A stretch of 64,000 nt of DNA from Spirochaetes bacterium GWE1_32_154 (GTDB lineage: Bacteria; Spirochaetota; GWE2-31-10), in contig MIAY01000017.1 in NCBI GenBank assembly GCA_001829315.1, positions 69,568 through 133,567 of the forward strand, given 5' to 3'. The notes beneath the pieces were generated by a model. That model did not search any database and was not told the origin of the DNA. It worked only from the letters and a program-made list of their open reading frames with translations. A program made the translations under genes and the position numbers. Positions within the stretch are counted from its first letter, which is position 1. Every line of letters begins with the position of its first letter. Shown here piece after piece: positions 3,765 to 52,303 of this stretch.

Positions 3765-6344
3765 TTATGTTTCAAAAGGAAGTTTAATAGTAAATTTTGT
3801 CCATTCACCATCAAGTGACTCTACAGAAATAGAACCTTTATGCGTCTGGGTAATAATAAAATACGTCACGGTCAACCCGAGACCCGTTCCTACCCCGACA
3901 GGTTTTGTAGTAAAAAATGGTTCAAATATTCTTTTACGAACACTATCAGTCATTCCGCCACCATTATCCTGTATTACGATAATGATTTCACTTCCGATTT
4001 CTCTAAAGGTGGAAACTTGCAATTCCGGTTTATATTCAGTAACCGATTGCGTTGCTTTTTCAATCATGGAAAAAGCAGCATTTTTAATAAGATTAATAAA
4101 AACCTGCTCAATTTCAGTTTTTTTAATACTTATTAGCGGTAAATCAGGTGAATAATTTTTTACGATATTTATTTGTTTAAAGTCGTATTTCTTTTCTATA
4201 TCATAATCCGTACAAGTAAGATTAATGGTAAAATCAAGTATTTCATTAATTGACACGTCTTCTTTTCCGGCATTACTTTTCCTGCTGAAATTAAGCATAT
4301 TAGATACTATGTATGCTGCCCGTTTTCCTGATGAATTAATACCATCAATATAACTCAGTATATTTCTACGCTTCAAATATTCATTTATTTGTTCAAGTGA
4401 TATACCCAATTCATTACAAGTTTCCAGATTTGCAGGTAGCTCAGAAGATAAACGACGCATCATATTTTGCCCCCCCTGAATAATAGCAGCCAAAGGATTG
4501 TTAATTTCATGTGCCATACCGGCAGCCAGTTCACCAATAGTTACCATTTTTTCTGTTTGAACCAACATTTCCCTGAACCTGTTTTTTTCAGTAATATCAT
4601 CAAGAACTATAACAAGCCCCTCATTTTCAATCGGATAAATACTTATATCATAATAGTAGAAAACACCCTTTTCCTGTTTTTTAAGACTTTCAATAATAAC
4701 CATTTCCTGTGTAACACAAGACTCATTCATTTTTTTTTCAAGTTCGGTAAAATAATCAGTTAAATGTTTTAAATCATTCGTATTTTCAAATTCAAAAGGA
4801 AGCCCTGGTAATTTGAAGTTATTTGTAATAACGACATTTCGTTTATTATCAACAGCAATTATTAAAGACTGCATTGAGTTAATAACTTTATTTAGATAAT
4901 TTTTTGTACTCACAAGCTCCCTGCTCATCGCAATTGCATCTGATAAATCATTAAAAACAACATAAAGTTCATTATTTGCTAATGAAAATGATATTTCAAC
5001 ATCTCTTACAATACCATCCTTAGTTACAATTTTATATATTCGCCCTTTTGAATACATAACTCCTGAAGACACTGCAGTTTCAATATCTGACTTCCATAAT
5101 AATTCACTTTCTATGCGGTATTTTTCATCCGGATATGCTTTAAGACTCCATTCAGTGACTGTATGTACGTCACCAATATCATACCCGAATAATGATACAA
5201 ATTTTGCATTAACATAGATAAGTTTACCATCCAATCCGGCAACACCAATACCCACGGGTATATTCTCACTTAATGATCTGAATTTTTTTTCGCTTTGCCT
5301 GATTTCTTCTTCCCTGGATTTAATTGACATCTGCATTCTATTAAAATAATCGTAGAGTTGCTGAAATTCATATAATCCGCTCAATGCACCACCTTCAGAA
5401 TATTCACCTGATGATAATCGATCCATACTTTTTACAAATCCTGCCAATGATTTATTAAATTTGACAAGTAAATTATTTGACATGACAAAAAGCATTACTA
5501 ATAATACAATCAAATAACCGAATTGAATATAATTTATCTGACGAACTACAAAAAAAACATCTTCTTCTTCCTGATCTATAATAATAGTCCAATGAATATT
5601 TTCGAGATACAGATAACTCACCAGAATTTTATTTTTTCCTGATTTCCGCTCAAAAACACCTGATTTATTTATTTTCAATTCTTTTAATAATTCAACATCA
5701 ACTTTATAACTTTCAGCATAAAAAGCTTTATCCGTCACAATATATACACCATTTCTATCAAGTATACTTGCTGTAATCGAACTTTCTTTACTGATATCTG
5801 CAATCTTTTCCTCAATGACTACCAAATTAATATATGCAACAATTATATACTCATTCATAGGGAAAGCAACAGTGAGAGAGCGATTTGAAGTTTCATTTGA
5901 AACAAAAGACTTTGACCAGAAAGGTTTGCCGGATTTTTTAGTCTCGGTGAAAAATTCACTTCTTGCATAACTAAAACCGACAGAAGATACAAGTATTTTT
6001 GATGCAGAAACAACGGTTCCATATTCATCAAGAATCATTATTCCATCAAAAAAATCATAACTGTCAGCATAAGTATCAAGTAATGTATTCACACTTACAG
6101 ATTGTGGAGTATTTTTCCGGATGGTAATTATTTTACTTAAATTATTTAGAATATTAATTTTTTCCTCATAATAATTATCTATAATTATCGATATACTATT
6201 TATTAAAATTTTATTTTGTTTATACACATACTTTTTCATCTGTGAAAAAATCATAACCAGAGAGAAAAATACAAATATAAGATTAAATAGCACAACAAGA
6301 AGAACAGTATAAAGAAATATACCTTTAATGCTTCTATTCATCAT
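3765..6344 (-). CDS. membrane sensor histidine kinase (extracytoplasmic sensor, PAS, HisKA, HATPase)
   Basis: 859 residues. There is one membrane helix at about 10-33, a large extracytoplasmic Cache-like sensor, and a second helix at about 275-297. A PAS domain follows (ENIPVGIGVAGLDGKLIYVN), then a second PAS-like region. The kinase core has the H-box ELAAGMAHEINNPLA, the N-box FINLIKNAAFSM, and G-boxes DNGGGM and TGLGLTV. Its ATG overlaps the stop of the upstream LivK-like lipoprotein gene as TAATG, so the two are translationally coupled. The likely design is that the lipoprotein binds a small molecule and the kinase reads its state. No response regulator lies next to it. Confidence 0.9.
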   Translation of the reverse strand: MMNRSIKGIFLYTVLLVVLFNLIFVFFSLVMIFSQMKKYVYKQNKILINSISIIIDNYYEEKINILNNLSKIITIRKNTPQSVSVNTLLDTYADSYDFFDGIMILDEYGTVVSASKILVSSVGFSYARSEFFTETKKSGKPFWSKSFVSNETSNRSLTVAFPMNEYIIVAYINLVVIEEKIADISKESSITASILDRNGVYIVTDKAFYAESYKVDVELLKELKINKSGVFERKSGKNKILVSYLYLENIHWTIIIDQEEEDVFFVVRQINYIQFGYLIVLLVMLFVMSNNLLVKFNKSLAGFVKSMDRLSSGEYSEGGALSGLYEFQQLYDYFNRMQMSIKSREEEIRQSEKKFRSLSENIPVGIGVAGLDGKLIYVNAKFVSLFGYDIGDVHTVTEWSLKAYPDEKYRIESELLWKSDIETAVSSGVMYSKGRIYKIVTKDGIVRDVEISFSLANNELYVVFNDLSDAIAMSRELVSTKNYLNKVINSMQSLIIAVDNKRNVVITNNFKLPGLPFEFENTNDLKHLTDYFTELEKKMNESCVTQEMVIIESLKKQEKGVFYYYDISIYPIENEGLVIVLDDITEKNRFREMLVQTEKMVTIGELAAGMAHEINNPLAAIIQGGQNMMRRLSSELPANLETCNELGISLEQINEYLKRRNILSYIDGINSSGKRAAYIVSNMLNFSRKSNAGKEDVSINEILDFTINLTCTDYDIEKKYDFKQINIVKNYSPDLPLISIKKTEIEQVFINLIKNAAFSMIEKATQSVTEYKPELQVSTFREIGSEIIIVIQDNGGGMTDSVRKRIFEPFFTTKPVGVGTGLGLTVTYFIITQTHKGSISVESLDGEWTKFTIKLPFET

Positions 6345-15123: not shown

Positions 15124-15238
15124 TTTTTACTCCTCGTTTAATATAAAATACATTGTTTATATATTAATCCGTGATGTATTTCATACTTCATTGTAATTAT
15201 TAATTTTCTCAAGTAAATGAACAATAAAACAATATTAG

Positions 15239-15376
15239 GAGCTTCTTGCAAAAATACTCCTTTTATCTCGAATTTTTGCAAGAAGCTACCTCTAATGGGA
15301 TTATATCGCATATGGCGGACGCATAAAAAAAGTACCCTTTTTTTCATCAAATACTCTTGATTTTTGCAAGAGCCTC
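15239..15376. mobile_element. palindromic MITE-like element, copy B (long form, inverted)
   Basis: A 138-bp copy in the opposite orientation to copy A: it begins GAGCTTCTTGCAAAAATAC and ends TTTTTGCAAGAGCCTC. TTAG flanks it directly on both sides. The central hairpin arms are ATGGGAT/ATCGCAT with one mismatch. It belongs to the long class, which carries about 19 extra bases including an AAAGTACCCTTTTTTT tract. Confidence 0.88.
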
Positions 15377-20038: not shown

Positions 20039-20083
20039 AAGGCTCTTGCAAAAACAAGTACCCTTTATTTTTGCAAGAGCCTT
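20039..20083. repeat. mini palindromic element, copy D (45 bp, both ends only)
   Basis: AAGGCTCTTGCAAAAA and TTTTTGCAAGAGCCTT face each other across 13 bases and are flanked by TATA on both sides. The two ends of the dispersed element are kept while the middle is lost. It forms a near-perfect hairpin just upstream of the GNAT gene. Confidence 0.8.
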
Positions 20084-23090: not shown

Positions 23091-23116
23091 ACTTTTATCG
23101 TATTGTATCTGTCATT

Positions 23117-23158
23117 TGTCTGTAAAAACACCGTCACCTGTCGGATAAATTACCGACA
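23117..23158. promoter_or_regulatory. paired 20-bp palindromes upstream of the ABC export operon
   Basis: TGTCTGTAAAAACACCGTCA (23117-23136) and TGTCGGATAAATTACCGACA (23139-23158) are spaced 22 bp centre to centre, exactly as in the pair at 13994-14035 before the two-component operon. The right-hand member is the stronger in both. The sigma-54 promoter begins 60 bp downstream. Confidence 0.82.
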
Positions 23159-23217
23159 AATTTACATCCAAAAACATACAAATAAAACAACCAATCAATT
23201 CCAGGCCCTTTTCAAAC

Positions 23218-23233
23218 TGGCACAACTTTTGCT
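23218..23233 (+). promoter_or_regulatory. sigma-54 promoter of the ABC export operon
   Basis: TGGCACAACTTTTGCT matches the sigma-54 consensus (TGGCAC-N5-TTGC) with the required 10 bases between GG and GC. Transcription would start near 23243, leaving a leader of about 16 bases that is largely the ribosome-binding site AGGAGG of the gene at 23259. Confidence 0.9.
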
Positions 23234-23258
23234 TTACTATCACAAAACAGGAGGATTT

Positions 23259-23957
23259 ATGAAAATTAACAAATTACTTGTCTGCTTAACATTATTAAGT
23301 ATAGGATGTATGATGTACAGTATTGACGGTTCATGGGTCGGTACAATAAACGGTTTATCAACAAAACTATTAACAGAACAAATCAAACTGCTTGAGAAAC
23401 AATCAAAAAACACTAAAGATCTTGCCGGTGTTACCGCTAAAATCGGTATTTGCTATCACATGATTGCACTTGAAACAGGAAAAAATGCAGACACATCGAT
23501 AAAGAAATTACAAAAAAGTCTGTCATTACACAATGATCCGCTTGTAAAAGCATTTCTTGGTTCTGCAATGACGTTAAAAGGTAATGAAAAACAGGATCTT
23601 GGTATACTTGGTCAGGGTTTGCTGCTTATCGATGAAGCACGAAATGAAAGCCCGGATAATATCAGTATTTTATTACTGCGGGTAAGTAACGGAGCCGGTA
23701 TGCCTGATTTTATTTTAGAGTATAACAAAAGACTCGGTTTACTCAACGCTGACATACAACACAGTGAAAAAATGTATGCAGAAGGTACGTTACCTGTTGA
23801 AATGTTTGTTGAGTTTAAATATCTAAAATCAAAATTAGTGTTAAAAGAGAAAAAACTTAATGAAGCAACACAAATCTGGAATGAAATTATAACCGGTTTT
23901 CCCGACAGCAAATTTGCCAGGTTATCCGCACAGGAACTGTCAAAATATAGTGAGTAA
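23259..23957 (+). CDS. TPR-like lipoprotein, first gene of the ABC export operon
   Basis: The start is ATG 23259, behind AGGAGG; an upstream in-frame TTG at 23103 would swallow the promoter and is rejected. The 232-residue product has a signal sequence with a lipobox-like LLSIGC. It then has a helical body with alternating helix pairs and phrases such as LAGVTAKIGICYHMIALETG and KLNEATQIWNEIITGFPDSK, typical of TPR-type solenoids. It is related in style to the third gene of the operon. It probably acts as a partner of the transporter on the periplasmic side. Confidence 0.75.
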   Translation: MKINKLLVCLTLLSIGCMMYSIDGSWVGTINGLSTKLLTEQIKLLEKQSKNTKDLAGVTAKIGICYHMIALETGKNADTSIKKLQKSLSLHNDPLVKAFLGSAMTLKGNEKQDLGILGQGLLLIDEARNESPDNISILLLRVSNGAGMPDFILEYNKRLGLLNADIQHSEKMYAEGTLPVEMFVEFKYLKSKLVLKEKKLNEATQIWNEIITGFPDSKFARLSAQELSKYSE

Positions 23958-23977
23958 AAATCATTCAAGGAGATGGT

Positions 23978-24658
23978 ATGAAAGAAGTTATCTACCGGAT
24001 TGAAAATATTTGTAAATCATACAGACTTAACAAAGTAATTGTTGAGGCGTTACGGGATATTAATCTTACTTTATACAAAAACGAATCATGTGCTTTCATC
24101 GGGCCGTCGGGAAGCGGTAAATCAACACTTCTGCATATTTTAGGTAGCGTTGACATACCTGATTCAGGAACGGTATTTTTCAATAATGAAAATATTGCAT
24201 CCATGTCAGATAAAGAACAATCAAAAATCCGTGCAGAAAAAATTGGTTTTATCTTTCAGAATTTTAACCTGATTCCCGTATTGAATGTTTTTGAAAACAT
24301 TGAATATCCGTTACGAATGAGTAAAGGAAATCGATCAAACGAAGAAAGAGATAAAATCATGGCAATTATTGAAGAAGTCGGTTTGCAGGATCACATTAAA
24401 CACAAACCCGGTGAATTATCAGGCGGTCAACGGCAAAGAGTTGCTGTTGCACGGGCATTGGTTATTGAACCTGAAGTAATACTTGCTGATGAACCGACAG
24501 CCAATCTTGACTCAAAAACGGGTTACAAAATACTGGAACTGATTAAAAAATTGTCGGTGAAACATAAAACAACCCCGATATTCTCAACTCATGATGCAAA
24601 AGTTATAGAATTCGTAGAACGAAAAATAACACTCTCAGATGGTCAGATAATAGTATAA
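23978..24658 (+). CDS. ABC transporter ATPase, LolD/MacB type
   Basis: 226 residues with Walker A GPSGSGKST, Q-loop FQNFNLIPVLNVFENIEYPL, signature LSGGQRQRVAVARAL, Walker B VILADEPTANLD and H-loop FSTHD. This set and length are typical of LolD/MacB/FtsE ATPases that drive mechanotransmission rather than substrate passage through the membrane. The permease two genes downstream is its partner. GGAG lies before the ATG. Confidence 0.95.
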   Translation: MKEVIYRIENICKSYRLNKVIVEALRDINLTLYKNESCAFIGPSGSGKSTLLHILGSVDIPDSGTVFFNNENIASMSDKEQSKIRAEKIGFIFQNFNLIPVLNVFENIEYPLRMSKGNRSNEERDKIMAIIEEVGLQDHIKHKPGELSGGQRQRVAVARALVIEPEVILADEPTANLDSKTGYKILELIKKLSVKHKTTPIFSTHDAKVIEFVERKITLSDGQIIV

Positions 24659-24680
24659 AACAAACAAAGGAGCTACAAAA

Positions 24681-25424
24681 ATGAAAAAAATTATACCAAT
24701 TACTAGAGGCTCTTGCAAAAATCAAGAGTACTTGATTTTGCTTCCGCCAATACGCAATAAATTTGCGTTAGAAGTAGCCACATGCAAAAATTCGATAAAA
24801 GAAAAGTATTTTTGCATGTGGCTCTGTATAATGATCTTAACGATGATAAGTTGTCAAAATCAGACAAAACAACTTGAACTTACAAAAAATGAACTGAAAA
24901 CAAACTATCAGACATCTTCTTCTGTAGACGATGCCGTGAAACTTGCAGAATTTTATAATCTTAAATACACTTTAAAACAGGAACAAATTGAAGAAGGGCT
25001 AAAAGATATCGCACTTTTTAAAAGTCTCTATCCTGATGAATTAAAACTGCACATATTAGAGGGTAATCTCTACACCGTTTTAGGTGGTGCGTATGCAAAA
25101 AAAATGGATCTGGAAAAGGCAATGCGCAACATAACTAAAGGGTTTGATATAATGGATGAACTTTTAAACCAATATCCTGACAACAGCTATTTTCTTATCT
25201 ACCGGGGAATTAATTCGGTGAGTGTACCAAAAATGTTTAACCGTTTGCAATATGCACTATCAGATTTAAAGAAACTAATCGATATGGAAAACACTCCCGA
25301 TGAAATACGAATATTAGCATATACCAATTATGCGAAGGCATTAAAAATGAATAAGGATAAAAACGGGTTGAAAAAATTAAAAGGTGAATTTGCAACACAG
25401 TATCCTCATTTAAAATTGAAATAA
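24681..25424 (+). CDS. TPR-like lipoprotein whose signal region carries an in-frame copy of the palindromic element
   Basis: AAAGGAG lies 8 bases before the ATG. The first codons give MKKIIPIT, then 119 bp of element copy E are read straight through (RGSCKNQEYLILLPPIRNK and on to CMWL), and the native signal core resumes as CIMILTMISCQNQTK, with a plausible lipobox ending at SC. The element plus 4 bp equals 123 bp, or 41 codons, so the frame survives. The mature part (about 195 residues) is helical and TPR-like (ELKLHILEGNLYTVLGGAYA, KAMRNITKGFDIM). Without the insert the N-terminus would be an ordinary lipoprotein signal. Export may now be impaired, or may start from an internal ATG at 24816 (MWLCIMILTMISC). 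Confidence 0.8.
   Translation: MKKIIPITRGSCKNQEYLILLPPIRNKFALEVATCKNSIKEKYFCMWLCIMILTMISCQNQTKQLELTKNELKTNYQTSSSVDDAVKLAEFYNLKYTLKQEQIEEGLKDIALFKSLYPDELKLHILEGNLYTVLGGAYAKKMDLEKAMRNITKGFDIMDELLNQYPDNSYFLIYRGINSVSVPKMFNRLQYALSDLKKLIDMENTPDEIRILAYTNYAKALKMNKDKNGLKKLKGEFATQYPHLKLK
24706..24824. mobile_element. palindromic MITE-like element, copy E (inside a coding region, in frame)
   Basis: A 119-bp short-form copy beginning GAGGCTCTTGCAAAAATC and ending TTTTTGCATGTGGCTC. The terminal hairpin arms are AGCCACATGC/GCATGTGGCT, differing from other copies on both sides so that pairing is kept. The flanks are ACTA and TGTA, not an exact duplication. It lies wholly inside the lipoprotein gene at 24681 and leaves the frame open. 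Confidence 0.88.
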
Positions 25425-25443
25425 CAGCACAAAGGAGTTTACT

Positions 25444-26769
25444 ATGTGGAATATACTGACATTTATGTTTTCATATCTTATTCCGGGACTCGTTATACTT
25501 TTTGCCCTCTATCTGTTTATTAAGGAGCGATATCTTTTTTCAATATCTTTCCGTAATGTATTCAGAAATCCGAGACGTTCACTTATAACTATAACAGCCA
25601 TAGCCGTCGGTGTTATTGCAATCATCGTTTTCGGCGGTTATATAAACAGCCAATTCTGGGGTTTACGTGAGTCAACAATCCGTTCTCAAACAGGTCATTT
25701 TCAAATATACAAAAAAGGTTTTAATGAATTTGCCGTTAAAAAACCGTACGACTATAGACTAGTTGATTTTAAGGCAGTCACAGAACTTTTACAGAACGAC
25801 CCGATTATTGGTAATGCATTTGAAGTTATTGTACCGGAGGTGCAATTCTCAGGCCTTATTTCCACCGGGGATAATTCAACCGGTTTTCTTGGCAGGGGAA
25901 TTGACCCTGATAGCGATAATATAATCTCTTCATTTGACATAATGAAAAACGGTATGAAACTAAAAGGGAATGAAAAAGGCAGGACCGTTCTTGGAGCGGC
26001 ATTAGCAACAACACTTGATGCTAAAATCGGTGACTCACTGGTTTTACTAGTCCAGACACCGACAGTTGGACTTAATGTACTTGATGTGGATATTAAGGGG
26101 ACTTCCGAGTCATTTTCAACTGATTACGACAAAGTACTTGTGAAAATAAATATAACTGATGCGTGGGATTTAATGGGTGAAGAATACGCTGATAAACTCA
26201 CTATTCTCCTTAAAAAAACCAATGAACTTGATTTTGTCATGAAAAGAGTTGATCAGCTTATACAGGAAAATGGCCTTGATATTGAATATAAAACATGGAA
26301 AGACCTTGCACAATATTATTACAGTGTTGTAAGTCTTTACGAAGGAATATTCAGCTTTGTAAAATGGATGATCTGTATACTTATTATCATCTTTATCTCT
26401 AATACACTTTTTATGTCAGTCATGGAACGAGTCAATGAAACGGGCACTTTGCGAACAATCGGGACTACCAAAAACCTTATTATAAAAAGCTTTATTATAG
26501 AAAGTATGATAATGGGACTGATGGGTGGAATACTCGGAGTGTTTCTTGCATGGCTTACAGGTATGGGTATTAATAGTATGAATATTCCGATGCCTGCACC
26601 TCCCGGTGTCAGTAAAGAACTTATACTTTCAATCAGATTTGATGAGAATACCGTACCATCAGTGATATTCAGTTTGAAACTATCACTACTTACCGCTTTA
26701 GCAGGCTCGATACTACCAGCAATGAAATCGGTAAAAATGGGCATCGCCGAAGCATTACGACATTATTAA
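25444..26769 (+). CDS. ABC transporter permease, LolC/LolE (FtsX) type
   Basis: 441 residues: one N-terminal helix (about 8-25), an amphipathic stretch with the coupling phrase SLRNVFRNPRRSLIT-like (here SFRNVFRNPRRSLITI), a second helix, a large periplasmic domain (about 65-290), and three C-terminal helices (about 300-325, 350-380, 410-430). VMERVNETGTLRTIGTTK and GSILPAMKSVKMGIAEALRHY are hallmarks of the FtsX domain. With the LolD-like ATPase it would form an inner-membrane complex extracting lipoproteins or pushing substrate outward. AAAGGAG precedes the ATG. Confidence 0.9.
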   Translation: MWNILTFMFSYLIPGLVILFALYLFIKERYLFSISFRNVFRNPRRSLITITAIAVGVIAIIVFGGYINSQFWGLRESTIRSQTGHFQIYKKGFNEFAVKKPYDYRLVDFKAVTELLQNDPIIGNAFEVIVPEVQFSGLISTGDNSTGFLGRGIDPDSDNIISSFDIMKNGMKLKGNEKGRTVLGAALATTLDAKIGDSLVLLVQTPTVGLNVLDVDIKGTSESFSTDYDKVLVKINITDAWDLMGEEYADKLTILLKKTNELDFVMKRVDQLIQENGLDIEYKTWKDLAQYYYSVVSLYEGIFSFVKWMICILIIIFISNTLFMSVMERVNETGTLRTIGTTKNLIIKSFIIESMIMGLMGGILGVFLAWLTGMGINSMNIPMPAPPGVSKELILSIRFDENTVPSVIFSLKLSLLTALAGSILPAMKSVKMGIAEALRHY

Positions 26770-26780
26770 AAGGAAACGAT

Positions 26781-27530
26781 ATGAAAATAAACTATATAAT
26801 TGCTGCACTCATTGTTATAAACAGTACCCTCTGTTTCGGGATTGATGATCCTGCTTCAATTCTTAAAAAAGTTGATGATACAAGAGGGCCGTCTTTTTCA
26901 ACATACCAGACGACTATTGAAGTTATTACAACAGAAAAAAAAGTGATAACCGAACAGAACAAATTAACTGTTATTATACAAAGAGGAAATGACAGCGTTT
27001 CATCTATAGCTTTTTTTGAAACACCGGAAGATCAGAAAGGCCGGAAAATGCTTATGGTTGGCACTGACACCTGGCTTTATATCCCGGGATCAAAAAAACC
27101 GGTTAAAATATCACCGGCACAGAAGTTATCAGGAAATGCCTCAACCGGTGACATACTATCGGTAAATTATTCGGGTGATTATACACCTTCAATTACGGGA
27201 AATGAAAAAATCGGTAATTTTGATTGTGTACAATTAGAGCTCATTGCAGCAAAAAAATCGGTAACGTATTACAAAATTATACTGTGGGTAGACAAAAAAG
27301 AATATAAACCGGTGAAAGCAGAATATTATACAAAATCATTAAAATTGTTAAAAACTGCGTATTTCAGAAAATTTGAAATGATAAACAATAAAGAAATATG
27401 CACCGAATCAATTATAGTAGATGCAATATTTAATGATAAAGTTACCATAATCAAAAATTATGATTTTAGAAAATCAGATAAAACACAGTCGTATTTCAGT
27501 AAAGATTTTATAAAAGACGTAAGTTTATAA
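26781..27530 (+). CDS. LolA-like outer-membrane lipoprotein-sorting protein
   Basis: 249 residues with a cleavable signal peptide (about 1-21). The mature part matches the lipoprotein-sorting family found beside MacB/RND systems: DPASILKKVDDTRGP, TWLYIPGSKKPVKISPAQKL, GNASTGDILSVNYSGDYTP and YYKIILWVDKKEYKPVKAEY. The LolA-type half-barrel shields lipid moieties in the periplasm. Its place straight after the LolC/E-like permease supports a shared lipid or lipoprotein trafficking path. AAGGA lies ahead of the ATG. Confidence 0.85.
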   Translation: MKINYIIAALIVINSTLCFGIDDPASILKKVDDTRGPSFSTYQTTIEVITTEKKVITEQNKLTVIIQRGNDSVSSIAFFETPEDQKGRKMLMVGTDTWLYIPGSKKPVKISPAQKLSGNASTGDILSVNYSGDYTPSITGNEKIGNFDCVQLELIAAKKSVTYYKIILWVDKKEYKPVKAEYYTKSLKLLKTAYFRKFEMINNKEICTESIIVDAIFNDKVTIIKNYDFRKSDKTQSYFSKDFIKDVSL

Positions 27531-27539
27531 GGATTAAAC

Positions 27540-28994
27540 ATGATTAAGCACCTGCTCACGATAACACTGATATTTTTATCGATACAAGTAATGCATCCGA
27601 CTGATTCTATTGATGATGTATTCTTAAACTTTTCACTCGATGATGTAACTAATGACGTTACGAATACATTACCAAAAGAGTCACCAAAACAGAAAATGAC
27701 AATTAACGGTAGCGTTGCGGTAACTCAAAAAAGCGGTTTTCAATATTCGATAATTCGTGAGAATGTGCTTAATCCTGATAATGTGTTTAATATTGATAAC
27801 TACCAGTTTTTTGCCAATGCGAAAATACTTGCTGAAGTGTCAATAACACCTTATTTCAAATTCTATGCTGATTATTTTTTTCAGTTTACAATGAAAGGGA
27901 ATGAACTTGATCTGCAGACTGAGAATGATGCAAATAAAAAGGAATTTTCCGGTGAACTTAACGAATTATATGCAAGTGCAACAATACCCCTTCATTATCC
28001 GGCAAAGTTTTCAATCGGGCGAATGTTTTTCAGACAGGAGAACTCGCTCGGTTTTTCAATTTTTAACGGACTCTCATGGGATAAAAAACTTCTTGGCGGA
28101 ACATTCAGTGACAATAATCCCGGAGCGAATATGGTGAAATTCTCAATGTATTTTCCTTATATCAATTTTGATTTAATCTATTCTCCGGGGTCAGTTGTTG
28201 ATAATGATACAGCAGCATATTTTCATATCCCGAAAGAGCAGCGATTTTACACAATGCTAAATTGTAATGTTCCACAAACCGACTTCGGGTTTAACGGGTA
28301 TTTTGACAGTGATTTACAGTGGGGAGCAGGAACGACTGTTTCAGTAACTGTTTACGATGATCTTATACTCTACTCTGATTTTTCAGTCCAGAATTATAAT
28401 CCCAAAAAAAGACTGGTTAAAAAAGATGAATATCTATACGATGATATGAAAATGTATGAATGGGAGGAAACGCAGTCAATAAGTTTCACCGGGACATTAC
28501 TGGGTATCAATTTCAGTCCAAAATCTATTATATCGATGTACACGGAGATCTTTTATAACTCAAACGGATTCTCCCGTGATGAACAATCTACCTATTTTGA
28601 TACGATACAGGATATTAAGAAAAACTATAAAAACCCGTCATATCCTTCAATGGCTCCTAATGCTGACTCTATTAAACAACAGTTTACCTTGTATTACTTC
28701 GGATTATTAGCACAATCATTGTCAAGTTATGATGCAGTTTCCATGGGATCATTATTTATTTTCTCACGAGTCGGAAAAAGTGATATTGCATCAAGCGGGA
28801 TTGAACTTCTTTTATCATCATTAACATCCTGTTTTGACGGAAGTACGCTATTGATACCGCAAATTTCGTATAATTTTCTAAAATACTGTTCCATCAGATT
28901 ATATTCAAACATATTTATAGGTTACCCGGGTTCATTATTCGGTGAGATTCCGTATGTTGGAACGATTAATTTTGAAGTGGAATTAAAGTTGTAA
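27540..28994 (+). CDS. outer-membrane beta-barrel protein of the ABC export operon
   Basis: 484 residues with a signal peptide (about 1-20), a short linker, then a long series of amphipathic strands (MTINGSVAVTQKSGFQYSI, YFKFYADYFFQFTMKG, ITPYFKFYADYFFQF) ending in INFEVELKL. This type of barrel protein often follows LolA-like proteins in such operons. It is probably the outer-membrane end point of the export path. No closer family is recognised. It is the last gene of the operon. Confidence 0.75.
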   Translation: MIKHLLTITLIFLSIQVMHPTDSIDDVFLNFSLDDVTNDVTNTLPKESPKQKMTINGSVAVTQKSGFQYSIIRENVLNPDNVFNIDNYQFFANAKILAEVSITPYFKFYADYFFQFTMKGNELDLQTENDANKKEFSGELNELYASATIPLHYPAKFSIGRMFFRQENSLGFSIFNGLSWDKKLLGGTFSDNNPGANMVKFSMYFPYINFDLIYSPGSVVDNDTAAYFHIPKEQRFYTMLNCNVPQTDFGFNGYFDSDLQWGAGTTVSVTVYDDLILYSDFSVQNYNPKKRLVKKDEYLYDDMKMYEWEETQSISFTGTLLGINFSPKSIISMYTEIFYNSNGFSRDEQSTYFDTIQDIKKNYKNPSYPSMAPNADSIKQQFTLYYFGLLAQSLSSYDAVSMGSLFIFSRVGKSDIASSGIELLLSSLTSCFDGSTLLIPQISYNFLKYCSIRLYSNIFIGYPGSLFGEIPYVGTINFEVELKL

Positions 28995-36963: not shown

Positions 36964-37102
36964 GAGGCTCTTGCAAAAATCAAGAGTACTCAATGAAAAA
37001 AAGGGTACTTTTTTTTTGCTTCCGCCATATGCGATAAAATCGCATTATAAGTAGCTTCTTGCAAAAATTCGAGATAACAAAGAGTATTTTTGCAAGAAGC
37101 TC
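36964..37102. mobile_element. palindromic MITE-like element, copy F (long form)
   Basis: A 139-bp copy beginning GAGGCTCTTGCAAAAATC and ending TTTTTGCAAGAAGCTC. AAGA stands directly on both sides. The central hairpin arms ATGCGAT/ATCGCAT pair perfectly around AAA. It lies 29 bp upstream of the B12-radical SAM start and so probably within its promoter region. Confidence 0.92.
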
Positions 37103-46991: not shown

Positions 46992-47148
46992 GAGCCTCTT
47001 GCAAAAATACTCTTTTTATCTCGAATTTTTGCATGAGGCTTCCCTGGTTGCATGGGCGAGCAGCCGTACTCGGCGACCAGCCTCTAATGCGATTATATCG
47101 CATGTGGCGGACGCAAAATCAAGTACTCTTGATTTTTGCAAGAGCCTA
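46992..47148. mobile_element. palindromic MITE-like element, copy G, with a nested 40-bp insert
   Basis: A copy in inverted orientation: it begins GAGCCTCTTGCAAAAATAC and ends TTTTTGCAAGAGCCTA. TAGC stands on both sides. Bases about 47041-47080 are an extra GC-rich segment with ends CTGGTTGC/GCGACCAG that breaks the inner arm. Without it the copy is 117 bp. The methylase gene reads about 17 codons into the element. Confidence 0.88.
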
Positions 47149-48973
47149 TAGCGTACTGTTTTTCACTGACTTGAGAATTACTAAACGACTCAAACAGCCT
47201 GTCATATTTTTGCCCGGCAACAGTTTTTAACCCAATGATTTCATCATCCTCATTCACTGAGTTATAATTTAATTTCCCGAGTAATATTGTTTCTATTTTG
47301 TTAAACCCGGCCTGGTGTAAAATATCTTCATTGTGCCAGAAGATTCCGGTTTTCTCAATGACATTCAAAACTTCAATAATTGCTCGTAACGATGCTTTAT
47401 ACGCCTTTTTATTATTAAACTTTGATAAATAATATGGAATCTTTGCAAATAAAGGTTTAATTTCCTCATACTTACCATTTGAATAATGATCTGCTATCAT
47501 ATCAAGACAAAGGTAGATTTCATCCTCTTTTGTTATAGAAGTAATAGTCATTATATCATCATAAAATAACTCTAACGATTTATAATCCCAATTAACGAGA
47601 TTATTTAATATCATTTCTTTATCTGTCACTTGAGCATTTTTTATTATAAGATGTGCCTGATTAGTTAAATAATCTTTAAAATTATCTGAAATCCCGCCGT
47701 TTTTTTCAATAGAATAACCCGTTTTTTTAAGAGCAGTTTCAGAAAAAGATTTCTTCAATAACACTTCAATTTTATTCATCAGCAAATCTTTTTTAACATC
47801 CACCATATCATGAGTACTTCTTGAAACTCTTGAATCCACCATGATGATAAACTCTACATTTTTCAATTCTGTTGTCAGCGCCTGTTTTCCGCCTTTATAT
47901 TTTTCATATTCACTCGTTACTATATTTAATTTACCTTTTTGAGAGAGAATATCAAGAATTGAATCAAACGGTATAATTCCATCGGTTGAATAACTTACCA
48001 TAATATTATTAGAGTTTATATTTTGTATTATTTTGTTAAATTCTGTTTCTGCAGAGTCCTTATAACAAAAACCCGATCGTGTTGTAATCCAGTCTCTTCG
48101 GATTGCAGATTTATGTATCTTTTTACCGTCAATAATAAATTCTTTATTCACTTCAGGTTTATCATTTTTCGCAATTGTATTTAACAGATGATAATTTGAT
48201 CCATATTGATGTTGATTATAAGGAGGATCAAGATACACAATATCAAATTTTTCATTAGTCAGTTTTTGAGATACCAGTAAAGCATCTTCATTATAGACAA
48301 ATCCCTTTCCATCACAGAGTTGTGGTTTTACAAGCGTAATTTCTTTCATAATTCTCGAAAGCGCATCTTTGTTATTCCCGCCGAATCCCCGATGAAAACC
48401 TTTAAAAACTCCCGATGTATTAGATCGGGTTGATGCTTCATACAATAATAGTGCAATGAGCAAATCCTGTTCATCATTATTTATCATTCCTGTAAGATAC
48501 CATGTATCAATCATTGCCCTGATACCATCTATTTTTAAACCATTATATTTCGTATAAAATAATCGCTCAGTATCAACATCCGGTGTTTCATCATTGTGAG
48601 GACAATAGTATTCAGAAATGTATCTGTCTTTTTCAGATGCCGTTTTAATTCCATTTAATTGTGTTAATACCAAATCCAACCCTCCGAGTTTTGCAAATCC
48701 CCGCGTTATAATTGAATTATCAAGTCCGATAAATGCCCGGTTCATAATATAAGAATACCATTCCCAGTCATTGGTATGAACTTCAAACTGATATGATTTT
48801 GCTAATCGTGATACAACCCCGGTGCCTGCAAATAAATCAAGAAATTTCTTTCCTTTATTGCCATTTTCACAACCGGCTTTTTTTATTGCATCATTAATCA
48901 AAGGCAACAATCTTCTTTTATTACCAATATAAGCTATTAAATTCTTTTCAACATATTCTTTATTATATTCCAT
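47093..48973 (-). CDS. DNA adenine methylase (D12 class), C-terminus replaced by element sequence
   Basis: 626 residues, long for this class. The AdoMet motif is KFLDLFAGTGVVSRLA (about residue 43), with catalytic DPPYNQHQYGSNYH at about 255. The front (YIGNKRRLLPLINDAIKK) is typical of D12 adenine methylases. About 300 further residues at the C-terminus are of unknown role. The last 17 residues (GSCKNQEYLILRPPHAI) come from element copy G. Before insertion the frame would have continued YAIQSSF-stop. No endonuclease gene is adjacent, so it is probably solitary. AGGGG precedes the ATG. Confidence 0.88.
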   Translation of the reverse strand: MEYNKEYVEKNLIAYIGNKRRLLPLINDAIKKAGCENGNKGKKFLDLFAGTGVVSRLAKSYQFEVHTNDWEWYSYIMNRAFIGLDNSIITRGFAKLGGLDLVLTQLNGIKTASEKDRYISEYYCPHNDETPDVDTERLFYTKYNGLKIDGIRAMIDTWYLTGMINNDEQDLLIALLLYEASTRSNTSGVFKGFHRGFGGNNKDALSRIMKEITLVKPQLCDGKGFVYNEDALLVSQKLTNEKFDIVYLDPPYNQHQYGSNYHLLNTIAKNDKPEVNKEFIIDGKKIHKSAIRRDWITTRSGFCYKDSAETEFNKIIQNINSNNIMVSYSTDGIIPFDSILDILSQKGKLNIVTSEYEKYKGGKQALTTELKNVEFIIMVDSRVSRSTHDMVDVKKDLLMNKIEVLLKKSFSETALKKTGYSIEKNGGISDNFKDYLTNQAHLIIKNAQVTDKEMILNNLVNWDYKSLELFYDDIMTITSITKEDEIYLCLDMIADHYSNGKYEEIKPLFAKIPYYLSKFNNKKAYKASLRAIIEVLNVIEKTGIFWHNEDILHQAGFNKIETILLGKLNYNSVNEDDEIIGLKTVAGQKYDRLFESFSNSQVSEKQYAIGSCKNQEYLILRPPHAI

Positions 48974-51632: not shown

Positions 51633-52166
51633 ATGAATATTTTAATAGCTTATTTTAGCAAATCAGGAAATACAAAATTATTAGCAGAGCAGATAAAAAA
51701 CACTTTAAATTCTAAAAACCTTTCTTATGATTTTAAAGATGTTAATAATTTAGATTTTAATAATTTAAGTCAATACGATTTATTTATGATTGGTTCTCCG
51801 TGTTATTCAAGTGATATCGTGCCGATAATTAAAAAATTATTACTTTACATTTCAAAACTAAACAAAAAAGTATTATTATTTGTTACTCATTCCACAGATA
51901 TTTCCGGTGAAAAATATAACAAATGGGCTTTAGGATGTGAAAAAACATTTAATCAGATAATTAATAAAAATAATATTCTTGGTTACTATCACTGTATGGG
52001 AAAACCCAATTTAATGATACAATATTTTATTAAATTTATTGTTTTTAAAAAGCAAAAACCAGGCTGGTTAGACTTTAAAAAAGACATGATGAATCACCCG
52101 AATACTAAAGATTTAGAAGATTTCAAAAGTTATATTGTTAAAATAATAAATAATTTAAATACATGA
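51633..52166 (+). CDS. flavodoxin-family protein
   Basis: 177 residues. ILIAYFSKSGNTKLLAEQI is the FMN phosphate-binding loop, and YDLFMIGSPCYSSDIVPIIK and KKVLLFVTHSTDISGEKYN are the next two flavin loops. There is no signal peptide. It carries electrons at low potential or acts as a flavoprotein reductase. GAGGAAAAA precedes the ATG. The stop codon is made at the junction with element copy H (T from the flank, GA from the element); the original stop TAA would have been at the same place. Confidence 0.85.
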   Translation: MNILIAYFSKSGNTKLLAEQIKNTLNSKNLSYDFKDVNNLDFNNLSQYDLFMIGSPCYSSDIVPIIKKLLLYISKLNKKVLLFVTHSTDISGEKYNKWALGCEKTFNQIINKNNILGYYHCMGKPNLMIQYFIKFIVFKKQKPGWLDFKKDMMNHPNTKDLEDFKSYIVKIINNLNT

Positions 52167-52303
52167 GGCTCTTGCAAAAGTCAAGATTACTTGATGAAAA
52201 AAAGGGTACTTTTTTTATGCTTCCGCCGTTACGCAATATAATTGCGTTATAGGAAGCTTCTTGCAAAAATTCGAGAAAAAAAGAGTATTTTTGCAAGAAG
52301 CTC
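52165..52303. mobile_element. palindromic MITE-like element, copy H (long form)
   Basis: A 139-bp copy beginning GAGGCTCTTGCAAAAGTC and ending TTTTTGCAAGAAGCTC, with ACAT directly on both sides. The central hairpin arms ACGCAAT/ATTGCGT pair perfectly around ATA. It touches the stop codon of the flavodoxin gene. Confidence 0.92.

Follow-up and report, generated by a model that had tools for sequence, protein, structure and literature searches.

Short palindromic elements that lie in frame within protein-coding genes are best known from Rickettsia. The Rickettsia palindromic elements (RPE; Ogata et al. 2000) are described as repeats of 105–150 bp, distributed genome-wide and read in frame in unrelated genes (PMC2229807, PMC10969869, PMC3767692); the enzyme that mobilised them is not evident from these reviews. 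In Yersinia, a 168-bp palindromic element (YAPL/RU-2) in YPO1552 is reported to form part of a predicted signal peptide (Delihas 2007, in PMC2229807). The Correia element, or Neisseria miniature insertion sequence, is a MITE which in its 107-bp form has open frames fused to genes (PMC2229807); as far as that review says, signal peptides are not a focus of the reported fusions.

The locus considered here belongs to Spirochaetes bacterium GWE1_32_154, whose genome is a draft of 43 contigs, and lies within a stretch of 64,000 nucleotides referred to below as the window. At positions 24706–24824 of the window, a 119-bp MITE copy, copy E, is inserted into a lipoprotein gene. The reading that we favour, and consider likely, is that copy E was mobilised by an ISUnCu17-like transposase, is read through from the native start codon at 24681, and leaves a product that is probably exported and lipidated. 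Like the RPE, the element is short and palindromic and lies in frame in protein genes without breaking them. Unlike in the RPE account, 4-bp target duplications are evident, an IS1182-like helper can be proposed, copies are mostly intergenic and in-frame cases number about five; the likeness is an analogy by description, and no sequence relation is claimed. As with YAPL/RU-2, a MITE is read in frame and supplies part of what is predicted to be an exported protein's signal peptide, but the YPO1552 fusion seems, from what PMC2229807 says of it, to be a new gene, whereas here the element has interrupted the signal peptide in a lipoprotein gene that already existed and is syntenic. The element is taken to be a lineage apart from both. 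The Correia element and the present one are both MITEs with open frames in genes, although their ends differ. What the spirochaete adds to these systems is clear target duplications, a likely helper transposon type that can be named, and export signals entered three times independently. The limits of n-region lengthening in a signal peptide, and the way in which existing proteins gain peptide from mobile DNA, can be studied here in a simple case.

The repeat family is a MITE. Its members are short, with a modal length of 119 bp (27 of the 65 full-length copies), lack a transposase gene and carry terminal inverted repeats, GAG-CTCTTGCAAAAAT, at both ends. The genome contains well over a hundred copies; the census covered 41% of the genome as stretches, together with peptide searches of the whole. 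Genome-wide matches to the terminal inverted repeat number 523 (277 forward, 246 reverse), against 2 (1 and 1) for the reversed pattern. Exact 4-bp target duplications flank 46 of the 65 full-length copies, compared with 2.3% of cross-paired flanks, while an exact 5-bp duplication was found in 1 of the 65. In the sample, 78 of 113 copies are intergenic; 68% of copies lie outside ORFs, though ORFs make up 89% of the sample. A stand-alone 50-bp hairpin form occurs 30 times in the sequence examined, 7 of these with exact 4-bp duplications (against 1.6%), and this ultra-short form seems to be mobile as well. Single hairpins of 44–52 bp occur alone, for example at 5915–5964 of locus L052 and at 20039–20082 of the window.

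Besides copy E, the window contains eight other long copies of the family and several part copies. Variants of 138–139 bp, with a second hairpin part in the left arm, lie at 15238–15376, 36964–37102 and 52165–52303. A copy at 47078–47147, which has a GC-rich internal segment (CTGGTCGCCGAGTACGGCTGCTCGCCCATGCAACCAGGG), replaces the C-terminal codons at the 3' end of the gene at 47093–48973. In relatives, the only trace of the element is single-ended and intergenic (in genome G001), and at copy E no Rfam family matched above threshold.

Mobilisation of the family in trans is proposed to have depended on an ISUnCu17-like (IS1182-like) transposase, a reading that draws on the ends of the two elements. 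ISUnCu17, from the Aeromonas caviae plasmid NZ_AP026405, carries GAGCCTCTTGCAAAA and GAGCTTCTTGCAAAA as its ends, with the 4-bp duplication ATGA/ATGA on either side; both ends match the two MITE ends, and the duplications are of equal length. ISUnCu17 is about 1.5 kb long and autonomous, in contrast to the 119-bp element. The sole DUF772 match in the spirochaete genome (L189) is a frameshifted and truncated transposase fragment, 46% identical to the ISUnCu17 transposase. The element's left end, GAGCCTCTTGCAAAAAT, lies about 100 bp upstream of the start of this fragment; the right end is missing. The match of this short fragment to the NCBIfam IS1182 and IS5 models falls far below the cut-off. 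The fragment (1091–1740 of its locus, on contig C40) sits within an apparent integrase gene and is followed by IS21-like remains. Element-end pairs around an intact transposase were not found in the sampled 1.66 Mb, and the helper would by now have decayed in this genome. An IS982 element (L114) was considered as helper and rejected, its ends being unlike the repeat. Within the limited set of literature searched, no paper joins ISUnCu17 to an element of this kind.

Copy E, which like its own parts, its host gene and the signals of that gene is on the forward strand, matches the family profile over model positions 1–119 (103 bits), its boundaries being placed by means of the family's 4-bp duplications. 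At 19 positions its sequence departs from the consensus. The presumed target duplication is imperfect, with ACTA on the left (24702–24705) and TGTA, presumably mutated, on the right (24825–24828); 2 of the 4 letters match, and two or fewer matching positions are found in 11 of the 65 full-length copies. The left terminal inverted repeat, GAGGCTCTTGCAAAAAT (24706–24722), shows one difference from the left end of ISUnCu17 in its first 15 bases. A left hairpin, GCAAAAATCAAG-AGTA-CTTGATTTTGC (24715–24741), and a middle hairpin, ACGCAAT-AAA-TTTGCGT (24752–24768), are seen in both the sequence and the predicted RNA fold, the z-score of the fold in the left-hairpin region being -5.4. The fold also predicts a right hairpin (24776–24823) with a 16-bp stem, the 3' arm of which contains an internal ATG at 24816. 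As a typical copy of 119 bp with its 4-bp duplication, copy E has added exactly 41 codons, none of them a stop, between codons 8 and 50 of the gene.

The host gene (24681–25424) encodes a TPR-type lipoprotein of 247 amino acids, or 206 codons without the insert; the ORF translation reads MKKIIPIT-RGSCKNQEYLILLPPIRNKFALEVATCKNSIKEKYFCMWLC-IMILTMISCQNQ. An AlphaFold model of the protein has an all-helical TPR-like fold (pLDDT 85). Its sole syntenic orthologue, L002 of Spirochaetes bacterium GWB1_27_13 (G006), is 37% identical to it, and the two genomes have in common a run of neighbours made up of a TPR-like gene, an ABC ATPase, the lipoprotein and an FtsX/MacB permease. The leader of the orthologue, MRKIILAFVVFALAFSC, reaches its Cys in 17 residues and lacks the 41 residues; removal of the 123 bp from the window gene yields MKKIIPITIMILTMISC, likewise with 17 residues to the lipobox Cys. 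The second half of the native hydrophobic core, together with the lipobox, reads IMILTMISC (24828–24854, Cys codon 24852–24854) and aligns with the lipobox of L002. Among 393 Spirochaetota genomes no second true orthologue was found, only paralogue-like weak matches, so the function of the gene and its exact native signal rest on this one comparison. The surrounding cluster (23103–28994) codes for two TPR-like exported proteins, a LolD-like ATPase, an FtsX/MacB permease, a LolA-like protein (PF17131) and a putative outer-membrane protein, and resembles an operon for lipoprotein sorting or export.

The original prediction, made from the sequence alone, had placed copy E in frame early in this gene and had read its 119 bp plus 4 bp as 41 stop-free codons, after which the native hydrophobic core and lipobox resume; the sequence bears out these numbers and the resumption. 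Its comparison of the mobile palindromic element with those of Rickettsia holds in effect, since copy E and four other copies are inserted in frame without breaking their genes. It had also named, as a case that would speak against an insertion, an element-free orthologue with the same 41 residues; the sole orthologue does not present this case, its signal peptide being a plain one of 17 residues. The three Cys attributed to the insert are indeed present inside the element, but the total is four, a further one (TGT) spanning the right junction.

The open 41-codon frame is not remarkable on its own. When copies, strands and phases are combined, 77 of 390 placements are stop-free and 45 of 390 are both stop-free and frame-neutral. 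The consensus is open in 2 of 6 frames, a weak case for more open frames than chance would give (P = 0.054, dinucleotide shuffle). The closest sister of copy E, L116, is 94% identical, intergenic, flanked by TATA/TATA and open in the same frame; the open frame of E thus came with the element, its source subfamily presumably happening to be stop-free in that frame, and selection for openness within the gene is not needed.

A frame that is open by luck would also suit a young pseudogene, killed or crippled by the insertion, and the lipoprotein gene could be decaying or only poorly expressed. The 45 placements that are open and frame-neutral by chance fit such an outcome, as do the out-of-frame, gene-disrupting copies found elsewhere in the genome (L027, L110 and L016) and the insert codons, which have no coding-like base composition (GC1–3 of 0.32/0.37/0.42, against 0.43/0.25/0.29 for the gene). 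We nevertheless consider this explanation unlikely. Copy E has its 19 consensus differences and a drifted duplication, yet the 247-codon frame, the Shine-Dalgarno sequence and the lipobox are intact. The remaining 195 codons have kept a coding-like composition, and the frame has been kept in three independent signal-peptide insertions.

The element entered codons 8–9, in the middle of the hydrophobic core of the signal peptide. Under the favoured read-through, translation would still begin at ATG 24681 and use the gene's own Shine-Dalgarno sequence (AAAGGAG, 24666–24672, 8 nt before the ATG), both of which are native and intact. In place of the lost half of the core (IIPIT), the element would supply lysines (KNSIKEK) and then YFCMWLC, which runs into the native IMILTMIS and the lipobox. 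On read-through the hydrophobic stretch beside the lipobox is YFCMWLCIMILTMIS, with lysines ahead of it, and the best 10-residue hydropathy window scores 2.73 with the insert (FCMWLCIMIL) compared with 2.52 at the empty site. A charged n-region, a hydrophobic core and a lipobox Cys are seen with and without the insert, as judged by eye and hydropathy only; the residue at lipobox position -3 is Met rather than the usual Leu. Given the intact start, these lysines and this hydropathy, and the disfavoured internal ATG, an exported lipoprotein is expected whose signal peptide has an n-region of about 42 residues and which is probably still lipidated at the same Cys. Expression may be lower than at the empty site, because the left end of the element (24704–24712) is predicted to pair with the Shine-Dalgarno sequence, for which the predicted fold gives an unpaired probability of about 0.57 with the insert versus 0.92 without it.

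Alternatively, translation might re-initiate inside or just after the insert, at ATG 24816 or at TTG codons near 24735, so that the insert would serve as a 5' leader only. Several other copies of the family supply possible start codons for downstream genes, and the original prediction had suggested that the internal ATG (24816–24818) could be used; being in frame, it would yield MWLCIMILTMISC as a short hydrophobic lipoprotein leader. That suggestion fares poorly. The internal ATG has no Shine-Dalgarno sequence in the upstream AAAAGAAAAGTATTTTTGC, is predicted to be fully paired in the 16-bp stem (unpaired probability 0.0) and would leave a leader with no charged n-region, while the native Shine-Dalgarno sequence and ATG 24681 remain and the frame upstream of 24816 is open. 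Use of this ATG is judged unlikely, and re-initiation as a whole seems rather improbable beside read-through from the native start.

Copy E is not the only in-frame insertion: the genome has at least four more, each confirmed by intact flanking protein sequence in what is a partial census. In L155 (contig C19), a 7TMR-DISM/cyclase protein has the signal peptide MKLFIY-41 aa-ILLLSFIVLHIF, with a TATA/TATA duplication; in L052 (C1), the 50-bp hairpin form lies in a lipoprotein leader whose empty site is MKLLFTSVILLILSVSC (ACAA/ACAA). The other two are in L099 (C36), between two receiver domains of a hybrid histidine kinase (TAGA/TAGA), and in L022 (C14), at the start of the FAD domain of a ferric-reductase-like oxidoreductase (TTTT/TTTT). 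Seven further candidates (L154, L156, L186, L187, L070, L074 and L082), in which an open frame passes through a copy, were not counted as in-frame insertions, as the real start is likely to be downstream.

Three of the five in-frame cases, E included, are at codons 6–8 of signal peptides. Tolerance of a longer n-region suffices as an explanation, and five cases cannot prove more. It is conceivable, though very doubtful, that the family acts as a recurrent builder of signal peptides, its early-codon insertions being repeatedly kept and export thereby retuned in this spirochaete. Repeated retention in export signals might arise because the hairpin codes for a similar peptide, lysines followed by a hydrophobic run, from either strand, and because the lengths of 50 and 119 bp, each with a 4-bp duplication, are multiples of three. 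The stronger proposal, that the element has been selected as a ready-made signal-peptide part and its copies in signal peptides kept since they tune export, can draw on a hairpin that, whichever strand is read, codes in one frame for lysines and then FCM(W/S/R)L, and on the SCKN-type peptide of all three signal-peptide insertions, but is highly improbable, as n-region tolerance predicts the same pattern, the five cases are few and 78 of the 113 sampled copies are intergenic.

Copies lying just upstream of genes supply in-frame ATG or TTG codons at L070 (5007–5168) and L033 (13571–13688), and further such copies are found at L086 (733–848) and L187 (1111). It is possible that copies of this kind give rise to N-terminal extensions such as MQKFEIKRVFLQEAL.
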